Below are positions 7,287 through 61,972 of a DNA stretch of 64,000 bases, piece by piece. Each line of letters opens with the position of its first letter. The first letter of the stretch is position 1. Made by a program: the position numbers and the translations under genes. Source of the stretch: Caldilineales bacterium (GTDB taxonomy: Bacteria; Chloroflexota; Anaerolineae; J102); contig JAIBAP010000005.1 of assembly GCA_019695115.1 (NCBI GenBank), positions 62,001-126,000 on the forward strand, written 5' to 3'. Below the pieces are notes generated by a model. It did no database searches. It saw only the letters and a program-made list of their open reading frames with translations, and was not told where the DNA came from.

Positions 7287-7459
7287 ATGACACAAATGGG
7301 GGAAACACAAATTGTCTTTTTTTGTCTTCCTGACAACTACCGCTGATAAAACCTCGTTAGCAGTTGATTGTTTTGATGACACAAATGGGAAAAACACAAA
7401 TTGTCTTTTTTTGTCTTCCTGACCACTACCGCCGATAAGACATCGTTAGCAGTTGATTG
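7287..7459 (-). repeat. Tandem duplication of an 84-bp leader segment
   Basis: Positions 7287-7370 and 7376-7459 are the same sequence at 89-bp spacing, with about six differences by eye. Each copy holds GACACAAATGGG, a T7 run flanked by GTC and CTTCC, and the end TAGCAGTTGATTG. The pair lies just upstream of the cyclic-DPG synthetase-like gene, so one or both copies could contain its promoter, but neither shows a convincing -35/-10 pair. Confidence 0.8.
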
Positions 7460-7486
7460 TTGACTGTTGACTGTTGATTGTTGACT
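7452..7486. repeat. Heptamer array, GTTGAYT family, five units
   Basis: Five consecutive 7-base units alternate between GTTGATT and GTTGACT in exact register. The last unit overlaps the stop codon of tatC (7485-7487). This is the smallest of the heptamer arrays in the window. Confidence 0.8.
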
Positions 7487-17505: not shown

Positions 17506-17538
17506 CGTATGAACTCCTGTATTCGGGTATGGCGGGAA

Positions 17539-17740
17539 GCGTGAAACGTGAGGCGTGAAGGCGTGAAACGTGAAGGCGTGAAACGTGAAGGCGTGAAACG
17601 TGAAGGCGTGAAACGTGAAGGCGTGAAACGTGAAGGCGTGAAACGTGAAGGCGTGAAACGTGAAGGCGTGATGCGTGAGAAGAGTCGCACTGATCCCACG
17701 CATCACGCATCACGCATCACGCATCACGTTTCACGTTTCA
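17539..17740. repeat. CACG-family array with orientation switch
   Basis: From 17561 to 17665 seven exact copies of the 15-mer GCGTGAAACGTGAAG follow one another (a heptamer plus an octamer of the CGTG family). After a short gap, from about 17698 the opposite strand's words appear (CATCACG repeated, then TTTCACG). The two halves are inverted relative to each other and can form a long imperfect hairpin between malG-type permease and treS. Confidence 0.85.
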
Positions 17741-17772
17741 TATCCGCTACACCAAGTGCAATTGGGTGGTTG

Positions 17773-24266: not shown

Positions 24267-24285
24267 GATAGCAACTCCTGTAAGA

Positions 24286-24393
24286 ATTGGTTATTGGTTA
24301 TTGGTTATTGGAGATTAGAGATTAGAGACTGGAGATTGGAGATTGGAGATTATCAATAACCAATCTCTAATAACCAATCTCCAATAACCAATA
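24286..24393. repeat. CCAATNN/ATTGG heptamer array with orientation switch
   Basis: Nine heptamers run from 24286 to about 24348 (ATTGGTT three times, ATTGGAG, ATTAGAG twice, ACTGGAG, ATTGGAG twice). Then the reverse-complement words ATAACCA and ATCTCCA follow to 24393. The two halves can pair over some 40 bases. The array fills the space between the T-box terminator and the serS ribosome binding site. Confidence 0.85.
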
Positions 24394-24426
24394 AAAACGC
24401 CCCTCGTCTGCCAGGACGAGGGGCGT
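24391..24426 (-). terminator. Rho-independent terminator of the serS T-box
   Basis: A perfect 12-bp stem (24397-24408 with 24415-24426, loop of 6) is followed on the minus strand by TTTTTAT. It lies directly behind the T-box sequence, the standard position for the terminator that competes with the antiterminator. Confidence 0.9.
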
Positions 24427-24509
24427 TCGTGGTGCCACCTGGATTTGTCGCTCGTAGCGAAACGAGCAACCTTGGGGCCGATAACGAGGCCAAGCGGCGG
24501 GTTTTAGTC

Positions 24510-24562
24510 GGTTATTGGGTATTGGTTATTGGATCACGCTCCAATAACCAATCACTAATAAC
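24510..24562. repeat. Heptamer words forming a hairpin inside the T-box leader
   Basis: GGTTATTGG-type words run to 24532 and then, after ATCACGCT, CCAATAACCAAT-type words run back. This is the same CCAATNN vocabulary as the arrays at 24286 and 25970. It occupies the variable part of the T-box leader between stems I and III. Confidence 0.8.
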
Positions 24563-24692
24563 TTTTCCAACCAGCGGCTCGGGAGTGGATTTCGGCGGTT
24601 CGTCGCCATTGCCTCGCACCTGCCGGCAACTCTCTGCTGACTCGAAGCGCTTAGTTGTCTCCGTCGATGCCGTTGCTGATTCAACTGAAAAA

Positions 24693-25884: not shown

Positions 25885-25969
25885 GTTACCTCATCGTCTC
25901 ACAGAAGATAGAAAGCCCGGCGATTGTACCCCCCCTCCCCCTCTGCCCCCAAGCCCGCCCGACCACTCC

Positions 25970-26074
25970 CCAATAACCAATCTCCAGTCCCCAATAACCA
26001 ATCTCCAATCTCCAGTCCCCAATAACCAATCCCCAATAACCAATCCCCAATCTCCAATCCCCAATCCCCAATCT
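25970..26074. repeat. CCAATNN heptamer array, 15 units in register
   Basis: Fifteen consecutive heptamers drawn from four words (CCAATAA, CCAATCT, CCAATCC, CCAGTCC) run without a register break. Six C residues then lead directly to the ATG of the aminotransferase at 26081. The array thus replaces the usual 5' leader of that gene. Confidence 0.9.
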
Positions 26075-26080
26075 CCCCCC

Positions 26081-27722: not shown

Positions 27723-28247
27723 ATGGCCGCCGTTCTCCTGCTCAACGCCACCTACGAACCCCTGGCCGTCATCTCGCGGCAGCGGGCGCTGTCGCTGCTG
27801 CTGCGCGAGCGCGTGGATGTCGCCACCGACCAGATGTTGTCGCTCGTCGGCGTCCAGACCGCCTTCACCATCCCCACCGTGCTGCGCATGAAGCGTTATG
27901 TCAATGTCCCTCGTCGCGAGGCGGCATGGAGCAAGCGCGGGGTGCTGCGGCGCGATGGCTATCGCTGCATCTACTGCGGCGCGACCGCCGGCGAGATGAA
28001 GGAAGGCCACTTCTTGAACAAGGACGACTTCGGCGTCGACCACATCATCCCGCGCAGCCGCAACGGCAAGAATACCTGGGGCAACACCGCCTGCGCCTGC
28101 AAGTGGTGTAATCATCGCAAGGGCGGCCGCACCCCGCACGAGGCCGGGATGAAGATGCACTGGGAGCCAAAGACCCCCCGCGTCAACTATCTCATCCTCT
28201 CTGGCGACATCCCCGACGCCTGGAAGGTGTATTTGCAGGTGCCGTGA
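27723..28247 (+). CDS. HNH endonuclease family protein
   Basis: A 174-residue protein. The N-terminal half (VLLLNATYEPLAVISRQRAL) is the signature of a widespread bacterial HNH family. The C-terminal half has the zinc cysteines CIYC and CKWC, the HNH core DHIIPRSRNGKNTWGNTACACKWCNHRKGGR and so all expected catalytic residues. Such genes are chromosomal, common in Actinobacteria, Cyanobacteria and Chloroflexota, and of uncertain function; they are not obviously homing enzymes. GTGGTCA heptamers begin four bases after the stop. Confidence 0.9.
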   Translation: MAAVLLLNATYEPLAVISRQRALSLLLRERVDVATDQMLSLVGVQTAFTIPTVLRMKRYVNVPRREAAWSKRGVLRRDGYRCIYCGATAGEMKEGHFLNKDDFGVDHIIPRSRNGKNTWGNTACACKWCNHRKGGRTPHEAGMKMHWEPKTPRVNYLILSGDIPDAWKVYLQVP

Positions 28248-28251
28248 GGAA

Positions 28252-28293
28252 GTGGTCGGTGGTCAGTGGTCAGTGGTCAGTAGTCAGTGGTCA
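28252..28293. repeat. GTGGTCA heptamer array, six units
   Basis: GTGGTCG, then GTGGTCA three times, GTAGTCA and GTGGTCA, in exact register, starting four bases after the HNH stop codon. Confidence 0.85.
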
Positions 28294-28310
28294 GTCACGG
28301 CCGGCTCATT

Positions 28311-28499
28311 GCGACCTGCGACTGGCGACCTGCCCCCTGCCACTTGCGACCTGCCACCTGCCACCTGCCACCTGCCACCTGCCACCTGCCACTTGCCACT
28401 TGCGACCTGCCACCTGCCACCTGCCACTTGCGACCTGCCACCTGCCACTTGCGACTTGCGACTTGCGACCTGCCACTTGCGACCTGCGACCTGCGACCT
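28311..28499. repeat. GC[C/G]AC[C/T]T heptamer array, 27 units in register
   Basis: Twenty-seven consecutive heptamers, almost all of them GCCACCT, GCGACCT, GCCACTT or GCGACTT (two exceptions: GCGACTG, GCCCCCT). The register never breaks over 189 bases. The array fills the space between the convergent HNH gene and FHA-LysM gene. Confidence 0.92.
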
Positions 28500-28513
28500 G
28501 CCCCCCACCCCCC

Positions 28514-29338
28514 TCACGGCCGCCTGGGCACATAGAGAATCTGCCCCCACTTGATCTGGTTGTTCTGCAAACAGTTGGCCTGGCGCAGGCGTACTACGCG
28601 GATGCCGTAACGCCTCGCCAGGCCGCGCAGGGTTTCGCCCTGCCGGACGACTTTCTTCACCCAGCCGTCGGGGATGGGGCAGCTGCGCGCGGGGGCAAGG
28701 GTGGCGGATGGGGTTGGGCTGGGTGTGGGGCTGGAGGTCGAGGTGGCGGATGGGGTCGGGGTCGGGCTGGGGGTGGGAGTGGGCGTGCTCGTGGGTGAAG
28801 TCACGAGGGTCGGTTCGGGCGTCGCAGTCGCGGGAGCGGGGACGATCACCCGGTAGAGCGGCGGGCGACACGGCGTCGCCGGCGCTGGCGAGCAAATGGT
28901 TGGCGTGGGCAGCGGCGCTGGCGGCGTGGGGGTGATGAGCGATTGTTGCCGCCAGCGGCTTTGCTGCCACATGGCCAGGGCCAGGGCCGAGACGACGATG
29001 ACGGCCAGCAGGACATCGCCCCAGGCCCGCGGCGGGGCCGTCCCCGCCAGATCCTCCGGCGTCGCCATCTGCCAGTGCAGGTCGGTGGCCCCCACCGTCA
29101 GCACATCCCCATCCTGCAGCCGGGCCAGACCAGTCAGGACTGCGCCGTTGAGCCTGGTGGCGGCGCTCAGCGAGAGCGTCGCCGCCTGCCAGGCATCGTC
29201 GCTCACCCGCTGCAAGATCAGGTGCCGGGCCGCCGCCTGCGGATCGACCAGCCGCAGATCGCATCCGGCGTCGACGCCGATGATAAAGCCATCGTGGACA
29301 TCGACGGTGCGGCCGGAGGGGAGGCGAAGACCAGGCAT
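28514..29338 (-). CDS. FHA-like, single-membrane-span, LysM protein
   Basis: A 274-residue protein. Residues 1-100 look like a divergent FHA domain (PSGRTVDVHDGFIIGVDAGCDLRL, then LNGAVLTGLARLQDGDVLTVG). One membrane helix follows (VLLAVIVVSALALAMW), then a Pro/Thr/Ser linker of about 75 residues, and a C-terminal LysM domain (VKKVVRQGETLRGLARRYGI). This would put the phosphothreonine-binding-like domain in the cytoplasm and the peptidoglycan-binding domain outside, a plausible wall sensor. I chose the ATG at 29338 because it starts the FHA strand; no Shine-Dalgarno is visible. Confidence 0.8.
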   Translation of the reverse strand: MPGLRLPSGRTVDVHDGFIIGVDAGCDLRLVDPQAAARHLILQRVSDDAWQAATLSLSAATRLNGAVLTGLARLQDGDVLTVGATDLHWQMATPEDLAGTAPPRAWGDVLLAVIVVSALALAMWQQSRWRQQSLITPTPPAPLPTPTICSPAPATPCRPPLYRVIVPAPATATPEPTLVTSPTSTPTPTPSPTPTPSATSTSSPTPSPTPSATLAPARSCPIPDGWVKKVVRQGETLRGLARRYGIRVVRLRQANCLQNNQIKWGQILYVPRRP

Positions 29339-29498
29339 GAGCGAAAGCAAGGGGAGGATGCAACCGAGATCGTGCACCACGAGGGGCGGGCATGTCAACG
29401 TTGAAGACGTGATTCGCCGTCCGGGGGCGCGCTTCGGGCGGAGGCGGTTTCGTGATACGATTGCGCCTGCTGGAACCCCTCGCGCAGGAGCAAGAACG

Positions 29499-46358: not shown

Positions 46359-46456
46359 CAAGAGCATGATGGTTGCGCGGGCTACTTTCGCATCGATTCG
46401 GGCGATTTGAAGCCACGATTGATCGCCAGGTTGATTTGTTAGGAAGGTCATCGACC

Positions 46457-46576
46457 GTGAAACGTGAAACGTGAAGCGTGAAACGTGAAACGTGAGAAGA
46501 CGTCGGCGCTTTTCACGCCTCACGCCTCACGCCTCACGCCTCACGCCTCACGCCTCACGCCTCACGCCTCACGTTC
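46457..46576. repeat. CACGNNN array with orientation switch, supplying a stop codon
   Basis: Six heptamers of GTGAAAC/GTGAAGC type run from 46457 to 46498. After GACGTCGGCGCTTT the same family appears in the reverse sense, with CACGCCT eight times (46514-46569) and CACGTTC. The stop codon of the metallophosphoesterase (46562-46564) and its last residues come from this array. Confidence 0.9.
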
Positions 46577-58810: not shown

Positions 58811-59050
58811 TCAGGGTACGCGGATAAACGCGGATGAACGCGGATATTTTTTTTCTTGGTTTCATTCGCATTTCTCCGCGCAAATCCGCGTACCAATTGC
58901 AATCATATAGGCTTCTATCCGCGTTTCTCCGCGTTCATCCGCGTACCAATTGCAGTTATATAGGGTTTTATCCGCGTCCCTCCGCGTTCATCCGCGTACC
59001 AATTGCAGTTAAATAGGGTTTTATCCGCGTCCCTCCGCGTTCATCCGCGT
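58811..59050. repeat. 53-bp tandem repeats built from CCGCGT words
   Basis: The segment TACCAATTGCA... recurs at 58891, 58944, 58997 and (truncated) 59050, exactly 53 bases apart. Each unit holds ACCAATTGCAGTTATATAGG and two to three ATCCGCGT words. Just upstream, ACGCGGATAA/ACGCGGATGA words occur in the opposite sense, followed by T8. The last unit supplies the stop codon of the glycosyltransferase. Confidence 0.88.
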
Positions 59051-60324
59051 ACCACAACCAACTCAATTGCCTGAGCCGCGTGTTCGGCCCCGCCCAGGCC
59101 GGCCATCTCGGCCGCCCACCACTCGGCGCTGGTGCAAAAGGAGGGGTCGCCGAGCAACTGCGAGACCAGCACCGGCGCGCGGGCCAGGTCGAAATCGGCC
59201 GGGCGGACGCCATAGCCCACGCCTGCCTGCGTCACGCGCCCGGCTTGGGGCAACTGATCGCCGGCGTGGGGAACGACGATCTGGGGCAGGCCATGCACCA
59301 GGGCGGCATGGGTGGTGCCGACCCCGCCGTGGTGGATGATGGCCGCCAGCCGCGGGAAGACGGCGCCGTACTCGACCCATTCACTCACCCGAACCCCCTC
59401 CGGCAGCCCGGCCGGCCTGGCCCCGCCCCGGCCCAGCACCAACCACGGCTGCGCTCCGGCTTGGATCACGGCCCCGGCGGCAATGCGAAAAAAGGCATCG
59501 TCATGGTTGAAGGTCGAACCCAGGGTGATCAGCACCAGAGGCGGCGCGGATTCCGGCGCGGGAGACGCCAACGCCGAACCGCCGCAGAAAACCGTCTGCT
59601 CGCCCACCGCCGTCAGGTCGGCATACCACCCGCGGCAGAAGAAATCGAGATGCAGGTGGGGTGAAGAAGGCGTCCCGCGCGCCCGGTCCCAGTAGTCGCC
59701 CGCGACCCCGGCCATCTCGCGCAGCCGGGCGATGGCCTCTGCGGCCGGGCCGCGAATAGCGGCCGGGGGGCCGGGAACGGCGGCTGGGGGGCCGGGAACG
59801 GCGGCTGGGGGGCCGGGAACGGCGGCTGGGGGGCCGGGAACGGCGGCTGGGGGGAGGGCCGGACGGCCGATCACCACCAGCGGCAGCCCTGCTCTTTCGG
59901 CCAGGAGCGCGCCCGCAGCCACGAACGGCTCGATCAGGACGGCGTCGGGGCGGAAGCCATCCGCCACGGCGCTGAATGCAGCCAACGCCGGCCCCACCGC
60001 CTCGGTTTGCAGCCACACCGCCAGCCCACGCGCCCGTCGCACCTGCTCGCGTTCCTCGGCCCCAAGATCCGGCGGCAAGGGCGGCAGGTGGCCGTGCCAG
60101 CCGGTGGAGGCAACGGCGACGAAACGCACGCCCGCTGCAACCACGCTTGCCGCCACCTCCGGGCCGCTGGCCCACAGCACCTCATGCCCGCGCCGGGCCA
60201 GCGCCGCCGCCGTCGCCAGATAGCCGCCCCAATCCAGGTGGCCGGGGAAGGGATGGGAGAGGCAGAGAAAGCGCAAGGGAAGAAATGCGGATTCGGATTG
60301 CGAAATGCGAAATCCGTCGCTCAC
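59041..60324 (-). CDS. Glycosyltransferase, MGT/UGT type (GT1-like)
   Basis: About 427 residues, GT-B fold. N domain: LRFLCLSHPFPGHLDWGGYLATAAALARRGHEV. C domain: LVLITLGSTFNHDD, then the donor-binding signature IIHHGGVGTTHAALVHGLPQIVVPHAGDQ. Members glycosylate macrolides, sterols or carotenoids. GTG at 60324 overlaps the stop of the CBS gene (GTGA); the first 14 residues come from GGATTTCGC heptamers, so an in-frame TTG at about 60279 may be the true start. A 7-residue repeat (AVPGPPA) inserted at about 155-190 is in the loop between domains. The stop codon and last residues come from the 53-bp repeat. Confidence 0.8.
   Translation of the reverse strand: MSDGFRISQSESAFLPLRFLCLSHPFPGHLDWGGYLATAAALARRGHEVLWASGPEVAASVVAAGVRFVAVASTGWHGHLPPLPPDLGAEEREQVRRARGLAVWLQTEAVGPALAAFSAVADGFRPDAVLIEPFVAAGALLAERAGLPLVVIGRPALPPAAVPGPPAAVPGPPAAVPGPPAAVPGPPAAIRGPAAEAIARLREMAGVAGDYWDRARGTPSSPHLHLDFFCRGWYADLTAVGEQTVFCGGSALASPAPESAPPLVLITLGSTFNHDDAFFRIAAGAVIQAGAQPWLVLGRGGARPAGLPEGVRVSEWVEYGAVFPRLAAIIHHGGVGTTHAALVHGLPQIVVPHAGDQLPQAGRVTQAGVGYGVRPADFDLARAPVLVSQLLGDPSFCTSAEWWAAEMAGLGGAEHAAQAIELVVVRG
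59757..59868. repeat. In-frame 21-bp tandem repeat inside the glycosyltransferase
   Basis: About five copies of a 21-base unit (GGGGGGCCGGGAACGGCGGCT) encode a tandem AVPGPPA heptapeptide. 21 bases is three times 7, so the coding frame survives changes in copy number. Confidence 0.85.
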
Positions 60325-60905: not shown

Positions 60906-60983
60906 GGTTTCCTCACAAAAGGGTAAGTTCGGATTGCGAATTTCGGATTGCGAATTTCGGATTTCGGACTGCGAATTGCGCCT

Positions 60984-61095
60984 CACGTTTCACGGAACAC
61001 GTTTCACGCCTCACGTTTCACACCTCACGTTTCACGGAACACGTTTCACGCCTCACGCCTCACGTTTCACGGAACACATTTCACGCCTCACGCCC
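60984..61095. repeat. CACGNNN heptamer array, 16 units in register
   Basis: Sixteen consecutive heptamers, mostly CACGTTT, CACGGAA and CACGCCT in mixed order, without a break. Upstream (60930-60980) a related GGATTGCGAATTTC repeat of 14 bases occurs. The stop codon of the GDPD-like gene (61088-61090) lies in the last but one heptamer. Confidence 0.92.
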
Positions 61096-61972
61096 CGAAC
61101 GCATCTTGCGCCAGCTCTGGTCGGGCGGTGACGATGCCATCGGCGCCCAGGGCCAGCAGGCGGCTGATCTCGGCCGGGTCGTCCACGCCGCTGAAGAAGA
61201 TCTTCTGGTTGAGGGCGTGGACGCTGGCGATAAAACGCGGGCTATCATAGCGAAAGCGACCGGCCCTCACCGGCGTCTCGTAGACATCGCCCAAAGCACG
61301 GTGCAGGCCGATCAGCCCGAAGCTCTGCAACAACGAGAAGGTGCGCAATTCGTTACGGCCAACGACCGTGGCCACATCAGGCGAGAGGCGGCGAAAGCGG
61401 CGCAGGACGTCCTCGTGTGGGCTGCCCACGATCACCCGATCCTGGGCCTGGGCAGCGATGATGGCATTGGTGAGCCGCTCCGCCGCCGCCAGGGAGTCGT
61501 CCTGCAAGGCGATTTGTAACCGTGCGCTGGGAAAGGCCGCCATCACCTCGGCCAGAGTCGAAAGCGTCACGCCTTTGCTGCGGTAGGGATAGGTGATGCC
61601 GCCGTCGGGGATGAAGCGAAAACCTGCGTCCAGGGCCTTGATCTGGGCCAGGGTCAAGTCGCTGACCTTGCCAGCGCCGTCGGTGGTGCGATCGACCGTC
61701 TCATCGCGCAGGACGATCAACTCGCCATCGGCGCTGAGCCGGACGTCGAGCGCCAGGACATCGGCGCCCAGGTCGAGCGCGGTCTGGAAGGCGGCCAGGG
61801 TGTTTTCGGGTGCCAGGGATGCCGCCCCGCCTTGCGCCACCAGCATGGCCTCGGCGGACTGCAAGGCCGGGCGGCCGGCGCGCGGGGCCACGGTGATGGC
61901 CCGGTGCAGGCTGAACATCAGAAAGAAGATGACGACCGAGGCGAGCAGGCGCAGAAAGATGTCGCGGCTCAT
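61088..61972 (-). CDS. GDPD-like protein lacking the catalytic residues
   Basis: A 294-residue protein with one N-terminal membrane helix and a glycerophosphodiester phosphodiesterase TIM-barrel fold: APENTLAAFQTALDLGAD, LDVRLSADGELIVLRDETVDRTTDG and GADGIVTARPELA are all in the expected order. The catalytic residues are not: the HR of the first motif is Gln47-Gly48, the metal-binding Glu is Ala74, and the His of HD is Arg89. It is therefore likely a pseudoenzyme, perhaps a lipid or sugar-phosphate binding protein. The -10 box lies 6 bases before the ATG. The stop codon is inside the CACG array. Confidence 0.82.
   Translation of the reverse strand: MSRDIFLRLLASVVIFFLMFSLHRAITVAPRAGRPALQSAEAMLVAQGGAASLAPENTLAAFQTALDLGADVLALDVRLSADGELIVLRDETVDRTTDGAGKVSDLTLAQIKALDAGFRFIPDGGITYPYRSKGVTLSTLAEVMAAFPSARLQIALQDDSLAAAERLTNAIIAAQAQDRVIVGSPHEDVLRRFRRLSPDVATVVGRNELRTFSLLQSFGLIGLHRALGDVYETPVRAGRFRYDSPRFIASVHALNQKIFFSGVDDPAEISRLLALGADGIVTARPELAQDAFGA

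Follow-up and report, generated by a model that had tools for sequence, protein, structure and literature searches.

The STRR heptanucleotides of the cyanobacterium Calothrix are dispersed tandem repeats with a heptanucleotide unit. In many bacteria, long simple sequence repeats more often have a unit of seven bases than of any other length, an abundance for which slippage was put forward (Mrazek 2007, as cited in PMC4679880). The TAACTGA repeats of Beggiatoaceae, cyanobacteria and Bacteroidetes are 7-base direct repeats found in intergenic regions and scattered across phyla, and their insertions and deletions between close strains occur mostly in 7-nt steps (MacGregor 2015, PMC4679880). Changes of repeat length between Cyanothece strains follow mostly the same 7-nt steps (PMC4679880). 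In Xanthomonas and Nostoc, the GGGNATC and GGGGA(C/T)T repeats also have a 7-base unit, comprise 2-26 units and are intergenic at many loci (Rehm et al. 2015, PMC4692102). Many of the Xanthomonas repeats constitute inverted 'convergent' pairs, apparently of the same polarity as the pairs reported below, and their length differs between relatives (PMC4692102). Heptamer repeats have been noted in this way in several bacterial phyla, the slippage explanation being unproven so far.

The case investigated here belongs to these bacterial heptanucleotide satellites by its unit length, its dispersal and its unit-wise change. The focal array consists of head-to-tail 7-base units in many copies with no indels, such arrays are dispersed at many, chiefly intergenic loci, and changes of copy number by whole units can be observed in the CACG arms of one element. 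The case is set apart by its lineage, by the several word families present in one genome, by the absence of G-runs and by growth inside the copies of a MITE-like element. The TAACTGA repeats are mostly limited to one word, count 2-6 copies and, in the Beggiatoa genome, directly precede start codons (PMC4679880), whereas the arrays described here are long, use many words and are arranged in inverted pairs. The Xanthomonas and Nostoc repeats are made of other words, and no GGG is present in the focal words; in Xanthomonas, 83% of the repeats occupy the same place in both of two species (PMC4692102), whereas the two places tested here are empty in same-genus species. Compared with STRR and other long simple sequence repeats, arms located inside MITE-like elements are undescribed in the papers found, and the lineage is Chloroflexota, for which no description of heptamer satellites was found in the open-licence literature searched. 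The focal array is probably heptanucleotide satellite DNA that represents the overgrown arm of an intergenic hairpin.

The focal array and its neighbours

The window, i.e. the whole analysed stretch of 64,000 nucleotides, was annotated with gene calls from a simple model made for this analysis. C-type designates the strand of the focal words and G-type the opposite strand. The features of the focal region are the following.

27723-28247, plus strand: HNH endonuclease gene, left neighbour of the focal array, convergent, stop at 28247
28251-28295, plus strand: partner array of 6.4 copies of AGTGGTC, G-type arm, immediately 3' of the HNH stop codon
28296-28310, plus strand: 15-base spacer separating the two arrays
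28311-28499, plus strand: focal array, 27 heptamers GC[C/G]AC[C/T]T, C-type arm
28514-29380, minus strand: LysM/FHA-domain gene, right neighbour of the focal array, convergent, stop at 28514

The interval 28311-28499 can be split exactly into 27 heptamers, in agreement with the uninterrupted series that the first-pass annotation had reported between the two convergent genes, and TRF delimits at 28310-28502 a repeat of period 7 with 27.6 copies and 0% indels. The words are GCGACCT (9 units), GCCACCT (8), GCCACTT (6), GCGACTT (2), GCGACTG (1) and GCCCCCT (1). Both the conserved register and the restricted vocabulary claimed for the array are therefore confirmed, 25 of the 27 units being one of four words. 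A 28-base unit outscores the 7-base unit in TRF (267 vs 225). Judging from their sequences, the focal array and the AGTGGTC array, which the first-pass annotation leaves unmentioned, can be regarded as a pair of opposed arms. GACCACT, the reverse complement of the partner word, is similar to the focal words; the two arms are derived from unlike word families (AGTGGTC and GCCACCT) and do not represent a simple inverted copy.

The sequence TCACGGCCG is present at 28295-28303 and 28514-28522, on both sides of the focal array, and these are its sole two forward copies in the window. This pair could be either a target duplication or the result of chance. Around the focal array, no TIR was recognised and no dispersed partner flank was found. 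The closest relatives of the HNH gene belong to Chloroflexota MAGs (Caldilineales, Ardenticatenaceae and others), which makes an uncultured representative of the Anaerolineae the most likely host. A coding reading of the array was rejected: open reading frames cross it and encode heptapeptides of the PATCHLP type, but any stop-free heptamer array gives this result, and both flanking genes end outside the array.

Heptamer arrays in the genome and in its relatives

The pattern (GCSACYT)x4 was searched in the own genome (5.99 Mb, 135 contigs) and gave 389 matches. Arrays of the focal words are far above chance, since the reversed control gave 0. A comparison of periods was performed on 464 kb, combining the window with parts of three contigs: 78 arrays have a period of 7, and the other periods from 4 to 25, multiples of 7 excluded, count 0-22 arrays each. 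In a sample of 864 kb of the genome, a word-based caller counted 184 such arrays, of which 177 (96%) are intergenic, yet the coding fraction of this sample is ~88% by gene calls. The focal array had been announced as one example of a general phenomenon, and these three counts, with period 7 alone standing out, support this view. The words fall into the families GCSACYT (F1), CACGNNN (F2), CARTNNN (F3), GAYYACT (F5) and TACTCCY (F7). Arrays of these few families occupy intergenic regions genome-wide, mostly as inverted pairs of one polarity. Three other examples from the window are given below.

17531-17741, plus strand: CGTGAAA-type array (15-base tandem repeat), then a CACGCAT heptamer arm
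25963-26077, plus strand: array of CCAATNN/CCAGTNN heptamers, 5' of a class-V aminotransferase gene
60924-61096, plus strand: GCGAATT/GCGGATT (G-type) and CACGNNN (C-type) heptamer arrays

Two other sequences accompany certain arrays. The first, TCCTTCGTTTCACTCAGGACAAGCTCT, is a further dispersed sequence that breaks up GCSACYT arrays, at times twice in succession (C6:57290-57374, C2:69391-69473, C3:67072-67123, C8:38270-38400). A conserved segment of ~45 bp (beginning with GGATCGATCACGAATGGCACGAATGG) is located 5' of AGTAATC/AGTCATC arrays (C2:88845-88889, C6:2859-2903, C6:88024-88067, C6:57155-57207, C3:14722). A single register common to all word families was also considered and is not established by the ~14 junctions available, some of which are duplicates.

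The polarity of the pairs is pronounced. Neighbouring arrays no more than 400 bp apart follow the order G-then-C rather than C-then-G at a ratio of 26:6 in the discovery set and 23:6 on independent contigs; when all sampled neighbours no more than 200 bp apart are considered, 40 are G-C, 2 C-G, 9 C-C and 9 G-G. The same polarity is found in the listed pairs of other genera of the class (G077, G132). Since unlike families are combined in about two fifths of the G-C pairs, among them the focal pair, full base pairing is not the whole cause of polarity. Single arrays are G-type in the outward direction from the nearest gene at 35:13 (p 0.003), mostly at gene starts (25:5), where an avoidance, on the sense strand, of G-type words resembling start codons or Shine-Dalgarno sequences may contribute. 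An orientation set by gene 3' ends was rejected, as tandem genes do not conform to it, with sense C-type ratios of 41:25 and 44:36.

Relatives were compared using one genome per species, and 120 genomes of the class were surveyed. CACGNNN x4 is present in 55 of these 120 genomes and the focal words in 13. CACGNNN x4 has 1419 matches in the own genome, whereas the same-genus species G001 and G002 have 3 and 0, respectively; species-specific bursts of particular words would fit such counts. In G001, 21 bases separate the aminotransferase gene from the LysM gene at the place comparable to the focal junction, and neither an array nor an HNH gene is present. In G002, the HNH gene precedes a short array whose word, GACGATR, is another one, and the neighbour gene is different. 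A fixed placement of the arrays across relatives is contradicted by two comparable places, the serS leader and the convergent aminotransferase-LysM junction, that are devoid of arrays in same-genus species; insertion and deletion both fit this situation.

The focal words can be observed in a different context in G007, which belongs to another genus of the same family. Three of the four words occur there together as the 3-unit arms of a dispersed hairpin, for instance GCCACTT GCGACTT GCCACCT and GCCACCT GCCACCT GCGACTT. This hairpin lies inside a dispersed palindromic element present in many copies with 73-100% identity, and in the same genus the palindrome also exists without it: in G013, G014 and G016, query positions 1-51 almost abut positions 137-181, leaving the outer palindrome with the centre AAAGAATTCTTGG and no heptamer hairpin.

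L185-L200 (G007) and L256-L260 (G013, G016): versions of the dispersed palindrome that have or lack the central heptamer hairpin

The heptamer hairpin behaves as one unit, which a palindromic repeat either has or lacks at its centre. A related genus offers both the filled and the unfilled version, and the origin of such hairpins is thereby testable.

Growth by whole heptamers and order of the words

Several CACG-family pairs have in common a 19-base centre, AAAATCGCCGACGTTTTCT, which occurs 25 times in the genome with at most 2 mismatches. Reading outward from this centre reveals a dispersed element of ~150 bp with the imperfect inverted ends TATAGATGGCTAG / TATTGATCGCTAG, present in about 20-25 copies in the genome, with 18 left and 20 right ends among the copies read. 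One copy is located in the window.

46417-46576, minus strand: copy of the MITE-like element whose CACG/CGTG heptamer arms, on either side of the core AAAAGCGCCGACGTCTTCT, are enlarged
C2:64860-64993, C2:82074-82207 and C7:29063-29197: further example copies of the ~150-bp element

In its usual form, this element has a left arm of three heptamers and a right arm of two to three. Left arms of 21, 28, 35, 70, 91, 140 and 203 nt were measured, all 19 of 19 being 0 mod 7, whereas right arms of 17, 24, 31, 38, 45 and 178 nt are 3 mod 7 in 22 of 22 copies. These arm lengths are a direct demonstration that whole heptamers are gained or lost at unrelated sites of one genome. The expansion by whole heptamers advanced by the first-pass annotation is thus verified on the arms of one dispersed CACG-family element, which differ only by 7n; growth in place holds for this word family and not for the focal array itself. 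With ~20 copies bearing unequal arms, a single genome offers a natural experiment on whole-heptamer growth at fixed sites, from which the rate, the arm bias and the word turnover are measurable.

The element is comparable to MITEs and REP-type palindromic repeats by its small size, its dispersal, its hairpin arms and its imperfect terminal inverted repeats, such repeats being found for the ~150-bp element only. In contrast to these systems, neither a parent transposase nor a target duplication is established, and most arrays, the focal one included, are outside recognisable elements. Exact copies of the element ends number 16, of which 14 belong to copies with the core and the other two, close to contig ends, enclose an interior that is different or cut; no full parent transposon was found in the genome by means of these exact copies.

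The variation between units was counted on 187 units from 14 sampled arrays of the focal word family in the own genome. Position 3 (C/G) and position 6 (C/T) vary in 40% and 38% of the units, position 7 in 10% and the others in at most 2%. The initial statement that only two positions vary is accurate for the dominant ones and overlooked a third, weaker one. Compared with within-array shuffles, identical words recur in excess at lags 2 and 4 in the focal family (z 2.0 and 2.6) and in the CART family (z 6.6 and 3.8), an excess shared by GAYYACT (z 3.6 at lag 2), and at lag 1 in the CACG family (z 4.0). This excess fits the duplication of blocks of one or two units, of which the word order bears the trace. 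The variety of words looks inherited and shuffled through duplication rather than written, because the 3-unit arms of the G007 element already combine three of the four focal words. Such variants can thus predate a long array and be multiplied together with it. Striking 'coded' arrays, and this should serve as a warning, can come from inherited variants and duplication.

On the basis of these observations, short hairpins with heptamer-periodic arms would have spread within small MITE-like or REP-like elements. One arm, as in the focal array, would then gain 7, 14 or 28 bases at a time through replication slippage or unequal exchange, a process that would shuffle a few inherited word variants and preserve the register. 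The array-rich families would differ between species because the bursts are recent. Slippage alone leaves unexplained the presence of one word set at many loci without common flanks, as well as the polarity between unlike arms. A broader proposal, tentative and on balance doubtful, is that the heptamer-arm hairpins are a mobile or self-propagating module which grows after it has entered, in one polarity, a palindrome centre or an intergenic site. Lineages would swap word sets in bursts, and the arrays would be satellites with their own life cycle across the Anaerolineae.

Function, dedicated machinery and the code

The arrays could instead be functional RNA or DNA elements, such as bidirectional terminators, mRNA-end hairpins or leader elements, that are kept by selection and tolerate unit variation since the hairpin or a binding protein reads the core only. 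This explanation is considered improbable. The intergenic location of 177 of the 184 arrays, the strict G-then-C polarity and the outward G-type orientation of single arrays are in its favor, although comparable same-genus sites are devoid of arrays, the orientation relative to genes is inconsistent in tandem regions, and the polarity near starts may reflect only selection against G-type words that resemble start codons or Shine-Dalgarno sequences. Folding gives a divided answer: compared with shuffles, the minus strand of the focal region folds better (z -4.6) but the plus strand does not (z -1.2), and many pairs combine unlike families that are unable to pair fully. Behind the orthologous HNH genes of other Chloroflexota MAGs (L103, L105, L107), a hairpin with ATTGG-type units and a T run is located directly 3' of the gene and is a plausible terminator. 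No T run follows the arms at 28499 or in the listed G-C pairs of the own genome, so that these lack a defining feature of intrinsic terminators. A G-quadruplex function was rejected, given that the G-strand words AGGTGGC, AAGTGGC, AGGTCGC and AAGTCGC contain no GGG and do not provide at least four tracts of at least three G.

A very strong fold was obtained for an array in the leader of serS.

24409-24676, minus strand: T-box leader of serS, 84.9 bits, under the gathering score of 93, E 5e-19
24283-24395: heptamer hairpin between the T-box leader and the serS start codon, an ATTGGTT/ATTGGAG arm followed by a CCAATAA/CCAATCT arm

The fold of this hairpin has a z value of -10.7, which argues for a functional element, and the hairpin is missing in both same-genus species, G001 and G002. 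A search of the window against Rfam returned nothing at gathering score, and weak microRNA matches on this hairpin were dismissed as chance matches to a long stem. An effect of the focal array on transcript ends or leaders is possible; no specific function is needed to account for its existence.

A dedicated machinery, for example a transposase or a reverse transcriptase, might write the heptamers or move the hairpins, the hairpin being in this case a mobile element whose enzyme sets the words. Some observations would agree with such a machinery: one dispersed palindrome has or lacks the whole hairpin at its centre, single species show bursts of certain words, word families and genera share one polarity, and the direct repeat TCACGGCCG, which flanks the focal array, has no further copy on that strand of the window. 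This explanation is nevertheless very unlikely: no conserved target-site duplication was found across arrays, beside which direct repeats show no clear general excess, nearly all exact copies of the ends of the ~150-bp element sit in short copies, and ordinary slippage already explains the block-duplication statistics and the 7-nt steps. Finally, the two-position, binary-like and information-bearing code proposed by the first-pass annotation can be practically abandoned: nearly all variation of the focal family in the own genome is indeed at positions 3 and 6, but the word order fits block duplication, the words pre-exist in the short arms of the G007 element, comparable sites of same-genus species have no arrays, and a code common to the lineage is unlikely because the words of G001, of the same genus, are mainly GC[C/T]ACCT and vary at C/T instead, the variable positions differing between species.

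Longer tandem repeats are also present in the window, at 7287-7461 (89-bp x2) and 58884-59054 (53-bp x3.2). The former directly adjoins a GTTGACT heptamer array.
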